Shown here: positions 33,003-44,599 of the stretch, piece after piece
How the letters are laid out: each line of letters starts with the position of its first letter
Position numbering within the stretch: the stretch's first letter is position 1
NCBI GenBank assembly: GCA_900469965.1
Contig: UBZP01000014.1
Coordinates: 62,001 to 126,000, forward strand
From: Hyphomicrobiales bacterium
GTDB taxonomy: Bacteria; Pseudomonadota; Alphaproteobacteria; Rhizobiales; Rhizobiaceae
Direction: 5' to 3'
Length of the DNA stretch: 64,000 nt
The notes under the pieces: model-generated
Told to the model about the DNA's origin: nothing
The model's input: the letters and a program-made list of their open reading frames with translations, nothing else
Databases searched by the model: none
Translations under genes and position numbers: made by a program

Positions 33003-33971
33003 TCACGGCTGCGCGCGCAGCAGCGGGGCGGTCGAAAGGATCCGGTTCGTCCAGACATAGCCGGGGAAGGGGGAGGGCAGTTCCGCCACTTCGTCCGGCC
33101 AGTCGACGCCGGCCGTGCCGTCGCCGCCATAGGGCCCGAACACGATCACCTCGCTGCCGGCTTGCTGCATCCGCTGCATGAAACGGTTCGGCCAGCCCCA
33201 GAGCAGCCAGGCATAGTTCTGCGGGACGGGAACGATCGTGTCGCGGCAGGATTGCGGCACGTAGCCGATCCAGCCGGTGGCGAGATAGCCGAGCAGGCAG
33301 GACTTGGCCGATGCGCCGGTAAAGCCGGGCAGGCCGTCGATCCTTGCTGTGGCCGCATCCGTCGGCTCGCCGCCGCCGTAGACCGCCCAGACAGCGCTGC
33401 GCCATTGCGGCTGCGCTTCCAGCAGCGCCGCCAGCGCCTCCCCCTCTTCGGCCCGCCGGCTCTTGAAGTTGACGATGAACTTCTTGTCGGGAAAAGCGGC
33501 CAGGACCTCCTCCAGCGTCGGCATCAGCCCTTTGCCCTTGCCGCGGAAGGGAAAGGTCTTCCCGCCGTCGGCGGTATAGCCGTAGCCGATGTCGAGCCCC
33601 TTGAGCACCGTCATCGGCGTCTGCTCGGTGACGCCCTTGCCGTCGGTGCGGCAATCGAGCGTCCAGTCATGGAAGACGGCGAACGTCCCGTCAGGCGTCA
33701 GGTGCACGTCCAGCTCGACCACGTCGGCCCCGGCCTCGAACGCGGCCCGCATGCTGTCGATGGTGTTCTCCAGATAGGGGTTTTCCGGCGGCAGGATGCG
33801 CGTTGCGGTGCAGGTGTCGTTCTCGACCCCCTCGGGCGAAAAGATCTGGTGGACGCCGCGATGGGCGATGATCCGCGCCTTGCCCTCGGGCATCTCCGCG
33901 ATCAGGCTCGAATTGAAGGACCACACGAGCAGGCCGCAGCCGCCGAGGAACATCAGGATTTTCCGGAGCAT
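33003..33971 (-). CDS. Glycerophosphodiester phosphodiesterase-family protein
   Basis: A 322-residue protein with a single hydrophobic N-terminal segment (residues 3-24) that is a membrane anchor or signal peptide. The GDPD TIM-barrel motifs follow: RIIAHRGVHQIF, YLENTIDSM, VVELDVHLTPDG and VFHDWTLDCRT, which hold the catalytic His pair, the Ca-binding Glu/Asp and the acid. It would hydrolyse glycerophosphodiesters in the periplasm. It is 86 bases downstream of the GGDEF-EAL gene on the same strand and may share its transcript; convergent with era. Confidence 0.9.
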   Translation of the reverse strand: MLRKILMFLGGCGLLVWSFNSSLIAEMPEGKARIIAHRGVHQIFSPEGVENDTCTATRILPPENPYLENTIDSMRAAFEAGADVVELDVHLTPDGTFAVFHDWTLDCRTDGKGVTEQTPMTVLKGLDIGYGYTADGGKTFPFRGKGKGLMPTLEEVLAAFPDKKFIVNFKSRRAEEGEALAALLEAQPQWRSAVWAVYGGGEPTDAATARIDGLPGFTGASAKSCLLGYLATGWIGYVPQSCRDTIVPVPQNYAWLLWGWPNRFMQRMQQAGSEVIVFGPYGGDGTAGVDWPDEVAELPSPFPGYVWTNRILSTAPLLRAQP

Positions 33972-34057: not shown

Positions 34058-36436
34058 TCAGGTCCGGCCGGTCTTGGGCCCCTTGGCCGGCGCCTTCGCG
34101 ACCGCATTCTCCCGCGCCTGTTCGAGCAGCCGCTGCATCGCCCAGATGCCGAGATCCTCGATCGTGCGCGGCTGGCTGATCAGGTAGCCCTGGTAGAGGT
34201 CGCAGCCGGCGGCGGCCAGCAGCGTCATCTTTTCCGTCGTGTCGACCCCCTCGGCCACCACCTGCATGTCCTGGGCGTGGCAGAGCGCGATCAGCGCGCG
34301 CAGCGTCGGCAGCGCCGCCGCGTTGGTCAGGCTCTCGACCAGCGCCCGGTCGAGTTTGATCGTCTCGGCCGGATAGTCGATGATCTGCTGGACCGAGGTG
34401 TAGCCGGCGCCGAAGTCGTCGATGGAGATGCGGAAGCCCTTCTGGCGCAGCATGTCGATGTTGCGCTGCGACTGGTCGCCGAGCTTGACGGCGAACGTCT
34501 CGGTCAGTTCGATCTCGATCGCGCGCGCCTCCACCGAGTGCCGGTCGAGCGCATCGCTGAAGCGGTCGGCGATCGAGCGGTTGTACAGTTCCGCCGAGGA
34601 GATGTTGATGCACAGGATGGTCTCGGCGCCGAACAGCTGCTTGAGCCGGTGGCAATGGGCCATGGCCGTGTCGATGACCCAGGAATCGATCTTGCTGAAG
34701 AGGCCGGTCGTCTCCGCGATCGGGATGAACTCGTCCGGCGTCACCCTGCCGAGCAGGGGAGAGGCCCAGCGCAGCAGCGCCTCGCAGGCCGTCACTTTGC
34801 CGCGGCCGTCGACGATCGGCATGAACACGAGGTGCATCTCGTCGTCCGGGTTCATCGCCCGCAGTTCTTCCTCGATGTGCCGCTGCCGCGTGCGCTTCTC
34901 GTGCAGGGAGCGCGAGTAGCGGGCCGAGCCGTTCTTGCCCTGCGCCTTGGCCTGGTACATGGCCGCATCGGCATTGGCGAGCAGTTCCGGCAGGTCGGCG
35001 GCATCCTCCGGAAACACCGCGATCCCGATGCTGGCGGTCACCGGATAGGACTGTTCGAGCACTTCGAAGCCGCCGTCGAACAGCCGCACGATCGCCTCGG
35101 AGATCTCGCTGACGGTGCCGTCGCCCGGATGCGACTGCACCATGATCGCAAACTCGTCGCCGGAAAGCCGCGCCACCAGCGCATCGGGCAGGCCGCGACG
35201 CTCCGTTGCCGCCTTGACCCGCGTTTCCAGCCGTGCGGCGAGCGTCGTCAGCAACTCGTCGCCGACCTTGTGGCCATACTTGTCGTTGACGAACTTGAAG
35301 TTGTCGACGTCGATGAACAGAAGCGTGCAGCCGGCGCCGGATGCCCGGGCGACCTCGAGCATCTGGGTGGAGCGGGCGTTGAAGTGCGCCCGGTTGGAGA
35401 TGCCGGTCAGGGTGTCGGTCCAGGAGGCGGTCCGCACCAGCCCGAAGGATTCCACCGCATTGTCGTGAAGCTGCTTCATGTTCACCGAAAGCCGGCCGAT
35501 CTCGCCGACCTCCTCGACCGGCGTCAGCTCGCTGCGCTTGCCGGACATGACGTCGGTCAGCTGCTGGTCGAGGTGGGCGATCGGATTGGTGATGAAGCGG
35601 CGCACCAAGAGGAGCACGAGGCCGATGGTGAACAGGCTGAGGCCGATGGCGCCGATGGCGAGCAGCGCCTTCAGGTTCTGCAGCTTGCCCTCGACATGGC
35701 CCTCGTGCGGCGTCAGCCGCGCATAGAGCGTCGGGCCGAGCTTGGCCGTGGCGGAGACGGCGCCGACCGCGGTCAGCGGATGCGTGGAGACCTCGACCTC
35801 GGCGCCGTATTCCCGCTCGAGCATCGCCTTCATCTCGAGGAACTGGCGCGGGCGGACGGCGGTCTGGATCAGGATCGATCCGGCCTTGGCGCTGGAGACC
35901 GGGCGATTGAAGGTCTGCTGGTCGAGGAATTCGGAGTGGACGATCAGCGGTTCCGCCCCTTCCGGCTTGATATAGGTCCAGTCAGAAAGCTTGGGGCTGT
36001 CGATGAGCCGGCGGGCATAGTCGACCTGGGTCTTCGGAATTTCCGCAAAGGGATCGTCGCTGTTCTCGTAGTAGTAGTCGATCGAGAGCGGCGGGCGGAT
36101 GACGGTCAGCGAGACGAAGCGGGTCGGATCCTCCGACAGCGAGCGGATGCTTTCCTGCATCATCACGCCGATGGCGTTCGACCGGTAGCCGGCATCCGGC
36201 TCGTTGACGAACAGGCGCATCGCCGTTCCCTCGACCAGCGAATAGATCAGGCTCTTGTTCTGCGTCACGTCGTTCTGGAAGACCGCGCTCAGAAGACCCA
36301 GCTGCTGCCACAGGCGCGCCCGTTCGAGCGCGCGGACGGAGGCGCTCTGGCTCATGTAGAGCAGGGTGGCCGCCACCACGTAGCCTGCGAGAACGACCGG
36401 GAAGATGAGGAGAAAGGCGCGTTTACCGAGTGTCAC
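34058..36436 (-). CDS. Membrane GGDEF-EAL protein (c-di-GMP turnover), MbaA-like
   Basis: About 792 residues. The first transmembrane helix is at residues 5-27, a periplasmic sensor region runs to about 255, and a second helix spans 255-279. Then come a HAMP-like linker, a GGDEF domain with SGDEF near 423 (first Gly replaced), and an EAL domain from about 550: CEALLRW, ELTET, IDDFGAGYTS, VVAEGVDT, all catalytic residues intact. So phosphodiesterase activity is likely; cyclase activity is possible. The GTG at 36436 is taken as start because it overlaps the binding-protein stop by 14 bases; an ATG at 36550 would overlap 128 bases and add a poor leader. Together with the overlapping periplasmic binding protein it matches the NspS/MbaA layout. 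Confidence 0.86.
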   Translation of the reverse strand: MTLGKRAFLLIFPVVLAGYVVAATLLYMSQSASVRALERARLWQQLGLLSAVFQNDVTQNKSLIYSLVEGTAMRLFVNEPDAGYRSNAIGVMMQESIRSLSEDPTRFVSLTVIRPPLSIDYYYENSDDPFAEIPKTQVDYARRLIDSPKLSDWTYIKPEGAEPLIVHSEFLDQQTFNRPVSSAKAGSILIQTAVRPRQFLEMKAMLEREYGAEVEVSTHPLTAVGAVSATAKLGPTLYARLTPHEGHVEGKLQNLKALLAIGAIGLSLFTIGLVLLLVRRFITNPIAHLDQQLTDVMSGKRSELTPVEEVGEIGRLSVNMKQLHDNAVESFGLVRTASWTDTLTGISNRAHFNARSTQMLEVARASGAGCTLLFIDVDNFKFVNDKYGHKVGDELLTTLAARLETRVKAATERRGLPDALVARLSGDEFAIMVQSHPGDGTVSEISEAIVRLFDGGFEVLEQSYPVTASIGIAVFPEDAADLPELLANADAAMYQAKAQGKNGSARYSRSLHEKRTRQRHIEEELRAMNPDDEMHLVFMPIVDGRGKVTACEALLRWASPLLGRVTPDEFIPIAETTGLFSKIDSWVIDTAMAHCHRLKQLFGAETILCINISSAELYNRSIADRFSDALDRHSVEARAIEIELTETFAVKLGDQSQRNIDMLRQKGFRISIDDFGAGYTSVQQIIDYPAETIKLDRALVESLTNAAALPTLRALIALCHAQDMQVVAEGVDTTEKMTLLAAAGCDLYQGYLISQPRTIEDLGIWAMQRLLEQARENAVAKAPAKGPKTGRT

Positions 36437-37484
36437 GGAACTGGACCAGGCTGCTGATGATGCGACGGCGGGATTGGACAGAGGGAACGGAGAGTTCCTC
36501 CTGATACTGGCTCTTCGCCAGGATCTCGGGTGCGGTGTAGATTTCGGCATTCTCGCGCATGTCGGCGGGGATCAGCTTGAGCGCTTCCCTGTTCGCCGTC
36601 GGCATCTGCAGAGAGATGGCATTGCGGGCAGCGCTCCGGGCGCTGGTGATGTGGTTCAGAAGATCGAGCGCGGCCTCGGTATGCTTGGAGCGGGTGCTGA
36701 CGGCCATGCAGTCGAGCCAGAACAGCGTGCCCTCGGCCGGCACGGCATAGCGCCACAGCCGTTCCTTGCCGGTCATCTCGTCGAGCACGTGCTGGTCGCC
36801 GCTGTAGCCGAGCGCCATGTGCACCTCGGGGCCGACCTCCGGGTTCTGGATCGAGGTGATGACGTAGTCGTAGGTGAGGACATAGGGCGCCTGCGCCTTC
36901 ATCAGCTGGAAGGCTTCCCGAAGCGTCGCCTCGTCATTGGCGTTGATCGACTTGCCGAGCAGGACCAGGGCCGGCACGAAGGCCTCGTTGTGGTCGTCGA
37001 ACATGGCGATGTGGTGCCGCAGCGGCTCGCCGGGCTTCATCAGATCGGCCCAGGAGGTCGGCGCCGCAGTGACGGTATCCGACCGGTAGAGGATCCCCAT
37101 CGTTCCCCAGAGATAGGGCACGCCATAGCCGCCGCAGCGCTTCGTCCAGCTGTCGTCATACTCCAGCAGCGAGGGAAGCGTATCGGCCGAAAGCGATTTG
37201 AGAATACCGCGGTCGCCGAAGAGCCGGGCCCCGTTCTCGCCGGTGACGACGAGATCGATGTCGCTGCTCGGATTGGACAGGACCTCGTCGCGCGCGTCGC
37301 CGCTGTCGTAGTAGGTCTGGTGGACGTCGATGCCGGTCCGGGCCGTCCAGTCCGACAGGATGGACGGATCGATATAGGCTTCCCAGATCAGGAGATTGAT
37401 CGTTTCGGCAGCCGTCGCGGGCAGCGATGTCGACAAGGCGACCGCCGCCGCTGTCGCCATCAGCAAGGATTTTCGCATCCGCAA
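36423..37484 (-). CDS. Periplasmic polyamine-type solute-binding protein, NspS-like
   Basis: A 353-residue PotD-family binding protein. Signal peptide residues 1-25 end with LPATAAE. LLIWEAYIDPSILSDWTART near residues 30-50 follows the first strand and helix of PotD/NspS, followed by SSDIDLVVTGENG and GGYGVPYLWGTMGILYRSD, which line the ligand cleft. There are no ABC permease or ATPase genes nearby; instead the gene overlaps a membrane GGDEF-EAL gene. It therefore probably signals a ligand, perhaps a polyamine, to that protein rather than feeding a transporter. The ligand is inferred from family only. ATG 37484 or 37478 is the start. Confidence 0.86.
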   Translation of the reverse strand: MRMRKSLLMATAAAVALSTSLPATAAETINLLIWEAYIDPSILSDWTARTGIDVHQTYYDSGDARDEVLSNPSSDIDLVVTGENGARLFGDRGILKSLSADTLPSLLEYDDSWTKRCGGYGVPYLWGTMGILYRSDTVTAAPTSWADLMKPGEPLRHHIAMFDDHNEAFVPALVLLGKSINANDEATLREAFQLMKAQAPYVLTYDYVITSIQNPEVGPEVHMALGYSGDQHVLDEMTGKERLWRYAVPAEGTLFWLDCMAVSTRSKHTEAALDLLNHITSARSAARNAISLQMPTANREALKLIPADMRENAEIYTAPEILAKSQYQEELSVPSVQSRRRIISSLVQFRDTR

Positions 37485-38978: not shown

Positions 38979-39293
38979 TCAGTCCTCGAAGTCGAAGTTA
39001 TCGTCTATTTCGAGGCCCGGCGGCCGCTGCCGCCCATGCCGAATGGCAAGAATGACGACAGTCGTTTCCCGAATTTCGTAGTCGAACAGATACGAGCCGA
39101 TGACGAACCGCCGGATGCCCGGAAAAGGCAGATCATCCGGCGGGTGTCCCAATTGGGGAAAGCGCGCCAGCTCCTGTTGCAGCCGCCTGAGGCCGTCGCG
39201 AAACGCCAGGGCCGCGCGCGGGCTTCGTGCCATGAGGTACGACGCTTCCGCCTTCACATAGTCCCTGGCGTCCGGCGACAGGATGACTTTCAA
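38979..39293 (-). CDS. parE: RelE/ParE-family toxin
   Basis: A 104-residue toxin of the ParE fold: VILSPDARDYVKAEASYLMA at the start, AFRDGLRRLQQELARFPQLG in the middle and FVIGSYLFDYEIRETTVVIL near the end. ParE members poison gyrase. The start is a TTG whose last two bases lie in the antitoxin stop (TTGA), giving a four-base overlap and translational coupling at a low initiation rate. Whether it is active cannot be seen. Confidence 0.85.
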   Translation of the reverse strand: MKVILSPDARDYVKAEASYLMARSPRAALAFRDGLRRLQQELARFPQLGHPPDDLPFPGIRRFVIGSYLFDYEIRETTVVILAIRHGRQRPPGLEIDDNFDFED

Positions 39294-42224: not shown

Positions 42225-43256
42225 ATGGGCCAGAGCGTGCTGATCCCCGCCAACGAGACGGACCGCCTGGTTGCGGTGCGGGCACTGAACATGGCGGGCG
42301 GCAGTGCGACCACGCCGGAGCTCTCGGCCCTTGCCGATCTCGCAAGGGATATCTTCGAGACGCCCTTCGCGGCCGTCAACATCATCGACGAGGACTGGCA
42401 GCGCACCGCGGCCCAGGCGGGGCTGCAACTGTCGGAGTGCGCGCGCGACCTGTCGATCTGCACCCGCGTCGTGTTCGAAAACGAGATCCTGGTCGTCCCC
42501 GATCTCGCCGCGCATCCGGAGCTGCGCGGCATGCCCTATGTCACCGGCGAGCCGGGTTTCCGCTTCTATGCCGGCGCCCCGGTCGAGACGGAGGCGGGAC
42601 TGCCGGTCGGCGCGCTCTGCATCCTCGACACCCGGCCGCGCGAACTCGGTGCGGGCGAGCGGGCGAGCCTTGCGCGGCTTGCGCTGGTGGCCGGCGCGCT
42701 GTTGCGCCTGCAGAAGGCCAACCTCGTGATGGCGCTGGCGGAGCGCAGCCTGCGGGCGGCCGCCATGACCGATCCGATGACCGGCTTCTTCAACCGCTCG
42801 GCACTGCCGACGATCGTCGATGAGGCGCTGGAGGACACGCTGGTCTCCGGCAGCACCTTCGGCGCGCTCTATCTCGACATGGACGGCTTCAAGGGCATCA
42901 ACGACCGCTTCGGCCACCACGCCGGCGACGAGGTGCTGCGGCAGGCGGCCGACCGGATTCGCGCCGTCATCCGCGGCGCCGACATCGCCGTGCGCATGGG
43001 CGGCGACGAATTCGCGATCTTCATCCCCGATCCGCCCGATGCCGCCACGCTGGCGCTGGTTGCCGGCCGCCTGGTCGCCGCCTTCCACGAGCCCTTCCAG
43101 GCGGATGGCCACACCGTCTCGGCCCGGCTCAGTGTCGGCGGGGCGCTCGCCCCGCAGAGCGGCCGCCGGCGCGTCGAGTTCCTGAAGGTCGTGGATGGTG
43201 CCCTCTACGAGGCGAAGGCCGCCGGCCGCAACGGCTACCGCATCGTCGGGCTTTGA
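42225..43256 (+). CDS. GAF-GGDEF diguanylate cyclase
   Basis: A 343-residue cytoplasmic protein. A GAF domain spans about residues 25-165 (FAAVNIIDEDWQRTAAQAG to PVGALCILDTRPREL). The GGDEF domain follows: MTDPMTGFFNRSALP, YLDMDGFKGINDRFGHHAGD and the intact active-site loop RMGGDEFAIF near residue 257, with no visible EAL. It is therefore an active-looking c-di-GMP synthase gated by a GAF-bound signal or redox state. No signal peptide or helix. It is independent of the GGDEF-EAL protein upstream. Confidence 0.93.
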   Translation: MGQSVLIPANETDRLVAVRALNMAGGSATTPELSALADLARDIFETPFAAVNIIDEDWQRTAAQAGLQLSECARDLSICTRVVFENEILVVPDLAAHPELRGMPYVTGEPGFRFYAGAPVETEAGLPVGALCILDTRPRELGAGERASLARLALVAGALLRLQKANLVMALAERSLRAAAMTDPMTGFFNRSALPTIVDEALEDTLVSGSTFGALYLDMDGFKGINDRFGHHAGDEVLRQAADRIRAVIRGADIAVRMGGDEFAIFIPDPPDAATLALVAGRLVAAFHEPFQADGHTVSARLSVGGALAPQSGRRRVEFLKVVDGALYEAKAAGRNGYRIVGL

Positions 43257-43444
43257 TCCGGCTCCAATGGGCGAGTTGCACGTTTGCAATCAGGACCAGG
43301 ACAAGCGAGGTCGAAGCCACCCTCGCCAGTCAGGGTGGAGACGCTCGCTATCCCGCAAACAGCATTGAAGCGAACGCGAATCTGTGACCATCTATGGTGG
43401 AGATGGCTATCGCCTCAATCTTGGCGGGCGTAGGAGTGGGGCGA

Positions 43445-44599
43445 ATGACGAAGACTATCGAGATGCAGGAAATAGGCGGCCTGGGAGCCGGCTGGAACCT
43501 TGACTTCGAAAAAAGCAAGATGGTCCCGGCGCCGATCGAAACAAGCCGTGTCCTCCTTTGGGCGGAGACGCCTCTGCCAAAAGAAACGTGGAGGCCAATG
43601 CTCTATGAGACCTCATATCACTACACTGGACACATCGCACTTATCCGCGACCAGATATGGCACTGGGCTGATGGCGACTATACAGCCCATTACAGGTTGA
43701 ACATTGAAAAGACGTCGATAAAGAAAATCGAGGAAATAGGGCGGAGCGAGCTACTATCTATTACGTTCGACACCCCGGTTGGCTACAGCCTGCTTGCCGG
43801 AAAAAGACTTGGTGACCTGATTGAGAACGGCGATACTATTATGGGCTCGCACCTCGACGATCGCTATAAGCTGACCGCGAAGTCTGAGATTGTCAAAGCC
43901 GGACAAGGCGACGACGTCGTCGATGGGCGTGCCGGAAATGACAGGCTCTATGGCGCTGACGACAATGACACGCTCATCGGTGGAGCCGGGGCAGACCGTT
44001 TGGACGGAGGCCCGTTCCTCGACACGGCTTCGTATGCGGGTGCAGCCAAGGGCGTGAGGGTGAGCCTGGCAAACCCTGCGGTCAACACCAACGACGCCAA
44101 GGGCGACGTCTACATCTCGATCGAGAACCTTACCGGTACCAGCCATGCCGACAAGCTCTACGGCGACCGCGGTGCGAATACGCTCTCGGGTGGGGAAGGC
44201 AATGACATTCTGAAAGGCGGACCCGGATTCGGCTCCGACAAACTCCACGGCGGCGCCGGCGCAGACGATCTCTACGGCGGCAAAGGACATGACGTGTTCC
44301 AGTTCAAGGCGTTATCAGACTCCACCGTTTCACGCGCCGGCCGCGACACCATTTTTGACTTTTATGGCGACGACCAGATCGATCTCTCCAAGATCGATGC
44401 CAGCACGAAGTCAGCGGGAAACCAGGCATTCCAGTTTATCGCCACGGAAGCATTCCACGGCAAAGCCGGCGAACTGCGGTATTACAGACACTCGTCCGAC
44501 ACCTACGTCGTGGGCGACGTCAATGGCGACAAGAAGCCCGACTTCACAATCCATCTGGATGACCGCCTGACGTTAGACAAATACGATTTCGTTTTCTGA
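43445..44599 (+). CDS. RTX-type calcium-binding secreted protein, second copy
   Basis: A 384-residue protein with lower GC than its neighbours. Residues 1-150 have no recognisable domain. From about 152 there are RTX nonapeptides (GQGDDVVDGRAGNDRLYGAD, GGAGADRLDGG, GGEGNDILKGG). The C-terminal 90 residues share FIATEAFHGKAGELRY and VVGDVNGDKKPDF with FIGTHSFNDKAGELRY and ISGDVDGDGRADF of the RTX protein at 2471-3505, and end in YDFVF. It is a likely type I secretion substrate. ATG 43445 is chosen because AGGAG lies eight bases ahead; in-frame ATGs at 43394 and 43403 are possible. Confidence 0.78.
   Translation: MTKTIEMQEIGGLGAGWNLDFEKSKMVPAPIETSRVLLWAETPLPKETWRPMLYETSYHYTGHIALIRDQIWHWADGDYTAHYRLNIEKTSIKKIEEIGRSELLSITFDTPVGYSLLAGKRLGDLIENGDTIMGSHLDDRYKLTAKSEIVKAGQGDDVVDGRAGNDRLYGADDNDTLIGGAGADRLDGGPFLDTASYAGAAKGVRVSLANPAVNTNDAKGDVYISIENLTGTSHADKLYGDRGANTLSGGEGNDILKGGPGFGSDKLHGGAGADDLYGGKGHDVFQFKALSDSTVSRAGRDTIFDFYGDDQIDLSKIDASTKSAGNQAFQFIATEAFHGKAGELRYYRHSSDTYVVGDVNGDKKPDFTIHLDDRLTLDKYDFVF

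Follow-up and report, generated by a model that had tools for sequence, protein, structure and literature searches.

Two overlapping genes in a 64,000-nucleotide stretch of contig UBZP01000014.1 from a Hyphomicrobiales bacterium (assembly GCA_900469965.1; the whole stretch is hereafter the window) very probably encode an NspS-MbaA system, that is, an NspS-like polyamine-binding protein signalling to a bifunctional MbaA-like sensor that acts on cyclic diguanylate (c-di-GMP). What was observed here directly is the order and overlap of the two genes, their kinship and co-occurrence, the fold class and the intact catalytic motifs. For the components and their linkage, the analogy with the known NspS-MbaA systems is strong; the ligand, the complex, the enzyme activity and the sign of the response would follow those systems by analogy only. 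The earlier note on this DNA, made from its letters, knew of no established rhizobial counterpart, but NspS-MbaA of the root-nodule bacterium Sinorhizobium meliloti (smc00991-smc00992) had already been described in 2023, mutant phenotypes included (PMC9993111). The system is thus largely ordinary, extending a known polyamine-to-c-di-GMP receptor to another rhizobial genus rather than representing a new kind of system.

The binding protein matches SBP_bac_8 (Pfam, 5e-26), and PotD and PotF are its top NCBIfam models, with scores far under their cut-offs. It carries an apparent signal peptide, as judged by eye, and its structural model (mean predicted local distance difference test score, pLDDT, 92.9) is closest to the PDB entries of PotD, PotF, SpuD and SpuE (TM-scores 0.73-0.87), many of which are polyamine-bound. 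Whereas the fold and the core of the polyamine pocket are shared with these ATP-binding cassette (ABC) transporter proteins, the window pair has no permease or ATPase genes beside it: none was found among the window open reading frames of at least 100 residues in a motif scan with crude regular expressions. In an unrooted tree of 44 binding proteins, several of them long-branched, the 29 sensor-linked proteins are set apart from 15 transporter-type proteins by a 100/100 branch (200/200 bootstrap trees). The transporter-type set was picked by PotD-model and SBP_bac_8 matches, and an ATPase or permease lies near 11 of its 14 loci by the same crude scan, with none near L104, L113 and L114; an extra transport locus, L108, was left out of the tree because it yielded no binding-protein match. 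The sensor-linked group is further marked by a Y-S-G-D motif (window residues 227-230), present in 29/29 of its members versus 0/15 transporter-type proteins, and by two conserved cysteines, C117 and C259, which are likewise found in 29/29 sensor-linked proteins but in 0/15 and 2/15 transporter-type proteins, respectively, and possibly form a disulfide.

Among 34 distinct loci, which were chosen by their sensor, a binding-protein gene adjoins the sensor gene in 29. Since these adjoining proteins range from 91% to 28% identity with that of the window and yet stand next to the same sensor type, the arrangement is not attributable to chance. The other five loci, without an adjoining NspS (L060, L067-L070), are included in the sensor alignment but absent from the binding-protein tree; L041 and L042, where the match is limited to the GGDEF-EAL half, were left out. 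Across the family, the sensor half (residues 1-340) was detected in 18/151 genomes, in 16 of them at full length, and a profile of NspS at E<=1e-60 matched 16/151, the same 16 that carry the full-length sensor half, and 0/135 of the remaining genomes. The profile was built with rows from all 16 positive genomes, so that the informative part of this result is the 0/135 elsewhere; up to 13 candidates per genome were scored, and the draw of 151 genomes appears to be the same as that used for the sensor, by the handles listed. In the family as sampled, the two genes are therefore either both present or both absent. The sensor is encoded in 7/7 genomes of the window's genus, probably Mycoplana in the GTDB sense, and its relatives include those of Mycoplana azooxidifex (94%) and Rhizobium sp. 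GN54 (93%), as well as R. subbaraonis, M. dimorpha, Pararhizobium arenae and R. rhizolycopersici. A class draw of 240 genomes gave a match to the sensor-half profile in the window's own genome only, and a phylum draw gave matches in 14/398 genomes, two of them over TM2-HAMP only and two in the window's genus. NspS lies beside the sensor in 6/10 non-rhizobial full-sensor genomes, in one case across a 242-base gap. ABC genes always co-occurring with the binding protein had been named beforehand as grounds against the proposed identity; the crude ATPase and permease patterns matched nothing in the flanking DNA retrieved with the sensor loci, to which this observation is confined. Four pattern matches in viral contigs were considered, and none is a relative.

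The sensor contains GGDEF (2e-37) and EAL (5e-62) domains (Pfam), along with two transmembrane (TM) segments at approximately residues 3-29 and 254-286, which flank a loop of ~225 residues according to hydropathy. Its domain order is TM1, a periplasmic Cache-like domain, TM2, a HAMP-like linker, an SGDEF cyclase and an EAL phosphodiesterase, the linker resembling solved HAMP domains weakly in a profile comparison (E 0.03). Coordinates, Pfam and hydropathy thus agree with the earlier description of a PotD-family protein overlapping by 14 bases a membrane GGDEF-EAL protein with a large periplasmic loop and no ABC genes beside it, and the NspS/MbaA-like identity proposed on that basis is borne out by the tree, the adjoining loci and the shared 16 family genomes. 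Judging from its fold, its kinship and the missing ABC genes, the NspS-like protein, once secreted to the periplasm, would bind a polyamine-type ligand and feed no transporter. As in Vibrio cholerae, its ligand-dependent closed form may dock on the sensor's Cache-like periplasmic domain, and the docking signal would travel via TM2 and the HAMP-like linker, tipping the bifunctional sensor towards either making c-di-GMP (SGDEF) or degrading it (EAL). If the V. cholerae pattern applies, docked ligand-bound NspS would favour synthesis and lack of docking would favour c-di-GMP breakdown, and the resulting shift in c-di-GMP would be expected to change biofilm, exopolysaccharide and motility. Neither the sign nor the ligand should be assumed for the window, however, because S. 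meliloti, unlike V. cholerae, is reported to have no reciprocal polyamine control (PMC9993111).

The S. meliloti pair resembles that of the window in its origin from the Rhizobiaceae, its gene order, its overlapping frames and its SGDEF and EAL motifs; in the S. meliloti record compared, the binding protein is 57.1% identical to that of the window (92% covered) and the sensor half 48.5%. The two differ in their neighbour genes (purD and a major facilitator superfamily transporter in S. meliloti) and in the length of the overlap, which is 4 bases in the S. meliloti locus L058 as counted here (3 bp in PMC9993111) versus 14 in the window. The 14-base overlap recurs in relatives, e.g. L020, L022 and L059, and translational coupling is a possible consequence. 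Biofilm and exopolysaccharide of S. meliloti 1021 decrease when putrescine or spermine is supplied, and this response is lost in an nspS mutant that its authors regard as in effect nspS mbaA; strain 1021 responded via nspS to putrescine, 1,3-diaminopropane and spermine, and mbaA mutants formed slightly more biofilm and more exopolysaccharide (PMC9993111). The same study counted the pair in 222/16,076 proteobacterial genomes, Shinella included (PMC9993111), and the rhizobial system is cited in PMC13293326. A literature search combining Mycoplana and c-di-GMP returned nothing on a polyamine/c-di-GMP system by title (one title concerned lysine acetylation). The V. cholerae system shares with the window a periplasmic PotD-like NspS, a two-TM SGDEF sensor with an EAL-type domain and overlapping genes (PMC9993111), but its Vibrio-like relatives are only ~28-34% identical to the window proteins.

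Several observations weigh against an NspS-MbaA system in the window or against parts of this assignment. In the quorum-sensing-proficient S. meliloti Rm8530, dependence of the response on nspS is partial (PMC9993111). NspS is lacking beside the sensor in 4/10 non-rhizobial full-sensor genomes, and three of these four have no NspS-grade match anywhere (best 185-188 bits), so that the sensor may not always need NspS. The NspS-free loci are L067-L070, in four Vibrio-like genomes, and L060, in V. campbellii, where no binding-protein reading frame was found just upstream of the sensor in that record. A mirror-tree comparison provides no evidence of contact between the two proteins, given that NspS distances correlate with those of the periplasmic domain (r 0.91) and yet equally highly with those of GGDEF (r 0.93). 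No confident Pfam family was assigned to the periplasmic domain in the 27 members scanned; seven families matched, one member each and all weakly, dCache_1 among them (E 0.09). The fold matches of its structural model are marginal as well (best E 6e-4, TM-scores mostly 0.3-0.5), and many of them are titled Cache, PAS, CHASE4 or chemoreceptor ligand-binding domain. Finally, two modelled ligand contacts are changed in the window, as detailed below.

Loci L065 and L066 are termed Vibrio-like by inference from their residue spacing and their upstream pheA-like gene, which we take to be the V. cholerae neighbourhood of NspS-MbaA. Through these two loci, whose spacing equals the published one, we mapped the numbering of the eight residues modelled to touch norspermidine in V. 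cholerae NspS (PMC9993111), the V. cholerae sequence itself standing outside the comparison. Six of the eight are identical in the window (W34, D63, Y227, D230, W256 and D258), whereas D90 is replaced by G82 and F131 by L125; the S. meliloti record keeps 8/8. With six of the eight V. cholerae contacts kept, the ligand could differ. It is plausible, although the balance tips against it, that architecture and mechanism are the same but a changed pocket accepts a non-polyamine ligand, or a polyamine other than norspermidine or spermidine, e.g. homospermidine or putrescine. Besides the two replacements, such a change would fit the variability of these positions among the 29 linked proteins (7 have D at the D90 position, and 7 have F at the F131 position) and the response of S. 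meliloti 1021 to putrescine, 1,3-diaminopropane and spermine without reciprocal control (PMC9993111). Conversely, the other six contacts are kept, five of them in 29/29 linked proteins and D70 in 26/29, and many of the closest solved structures bind polyamines.

Regarding the enzymatic output, SGDEF occupies sensor residues 425-429, the metal-site and GDEF residues are intact, and the EAL motifs are usual and intact, as the earlier note had stated; the residues regarded as catalytically important are those generally recognised for such domains and those given in PMC9993111. From the SGDEF motif that note had deduced that ligand binding probably changes phosphodiesterase output, a conclusion that the motif does not warrant, given the V. 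cholerae case below. A sensor acting as a phosphodiesterase only, with a dead cyclase domain, is in our view unlikely, although serine replaces the first glycine and none of the 34 sensors (32 with SGDEF, two with AGDEF) has an RxxD at the distance usual for an I-site. V. cholerae MbaA was itself earlier taken for a pure phosphodiesterase (PMC8079147), and the extra biofilm and exopolysaccharide of the S. meliloti mbaA mutants fit a lost phosphodiesterase (PMC9993111). However, V. cholerae MbaA carries SGDEF, along with EVL where the window has EAL, and its mutants indicate both activities; both domains are needed, and the protein is reported to work as a bifunctional receptor (PMC8079147, PMC8967002). 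Furthermore, in one family genome (G088; L034:5983-8551), the NspS-like gene overlaps that of a 512-residue AGDEF cyclase with no EAL domain by Pfam and no EAL remnant evident in the 1.8 kb past the cyclase gene, that is, the NspS partner is kept with a cyclase domain alone. That a stray PotD-type transport protein merely happens to lie beside a c-di-GMP gene is highly improbable: PotD and PotF are the nearest named models and the genome encodes other PotD-like proteins, several near ABC ATPases, but the separate 100/100 branch, the adjoining sensor in 29/34 loci (picked by sensor) and the 0/135 family genomes with NspS at E<=1e-60 but no full-length sensor all argue against it.

Two Vibrio-like genomes (G398 and G214), namely, the fourth of those with an NspS-free sensor locus and one of the six with NspS beside the sensor, encode an NspS-like gene elsewhere (291 and 299 bits). 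In both, a GGDEF-EAL protein of 808-809 residues follows 3 bases on, which gives another pair built along the same lines (L122:5074-8538 and L123:5541-9002).

Returning to the NspS-MbaA system of the window, its meaning might reach further, if only on a rather doubtful extrapolation: the Mycoplana branch, probably the window's genus, would have a pocket re-tuned, by G for D90 and L for F131, to a polyamine other than that of Vibrio and Sinorhizobium, and the family would comprise polyamine receptors of diversified ligands feeding c-di-GMP, including phosphodiesterase-less (L034) and two-pair (L123) forms. The pocket changes and the EAL-less relative offer handles on ligand choice and on the switched enzyme activity, respectively, and are the parts most deserving follow-up.

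Coordinates of the pair and its neighbour are given in the table. An ATG at 37478, in frame two codons past the TTG, is the likelier start of the binding-protein gene.

Table. The NspS-MbaA-like pair and adjoining features in the window
Feature	Positions	Strand	Details
NspS-like binding-protein gene	36423-37484	minus	353 aa from TTG; 351 aa from ATG at 37478
MbaA-like GGDEF-EAL sensor gene	34058-36436	minus	792 aa, GTG start
Overlap of the binding-protein and sensor reading frames	36423-36436	minus	14 bases
Sensor stretch modelled	35552-36358	minus	residues 27-295, periplasmic domain and TM2; mean pLDDT 88.6
GDPD-family gene	33003-33971	minus	neighbour only, outside the system; Pfam; 86 bases downstream of the sensor gene

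The GDPD gene lies where the earlier note had placed it, but as a functional partner it was rejected, being present in only 2/37 loci searched (35 with the sensor, two loci entered twice). The window's own genome (5.34 Mb) also contains a gene (G000:C5:48977-50059) that matches the nspC model (TIGR01047) with 391 bits, just under the 409-bit cut-off; proteins of the nspC family make norspermidine or spermidine. A second GGDEF protein, which also matches GAF weakly, is encoded ~5 kb from the pair (42225-43256, plus strand). Elsewhere in the window are a ParE-family toxin gene (38979-39293, minus strand; Pfam PF05016, 3e-16) and a gene whose product combines RTX calcium-binding repeats with a region of the serralysin C-terminal type (43394-44599, plus strand).

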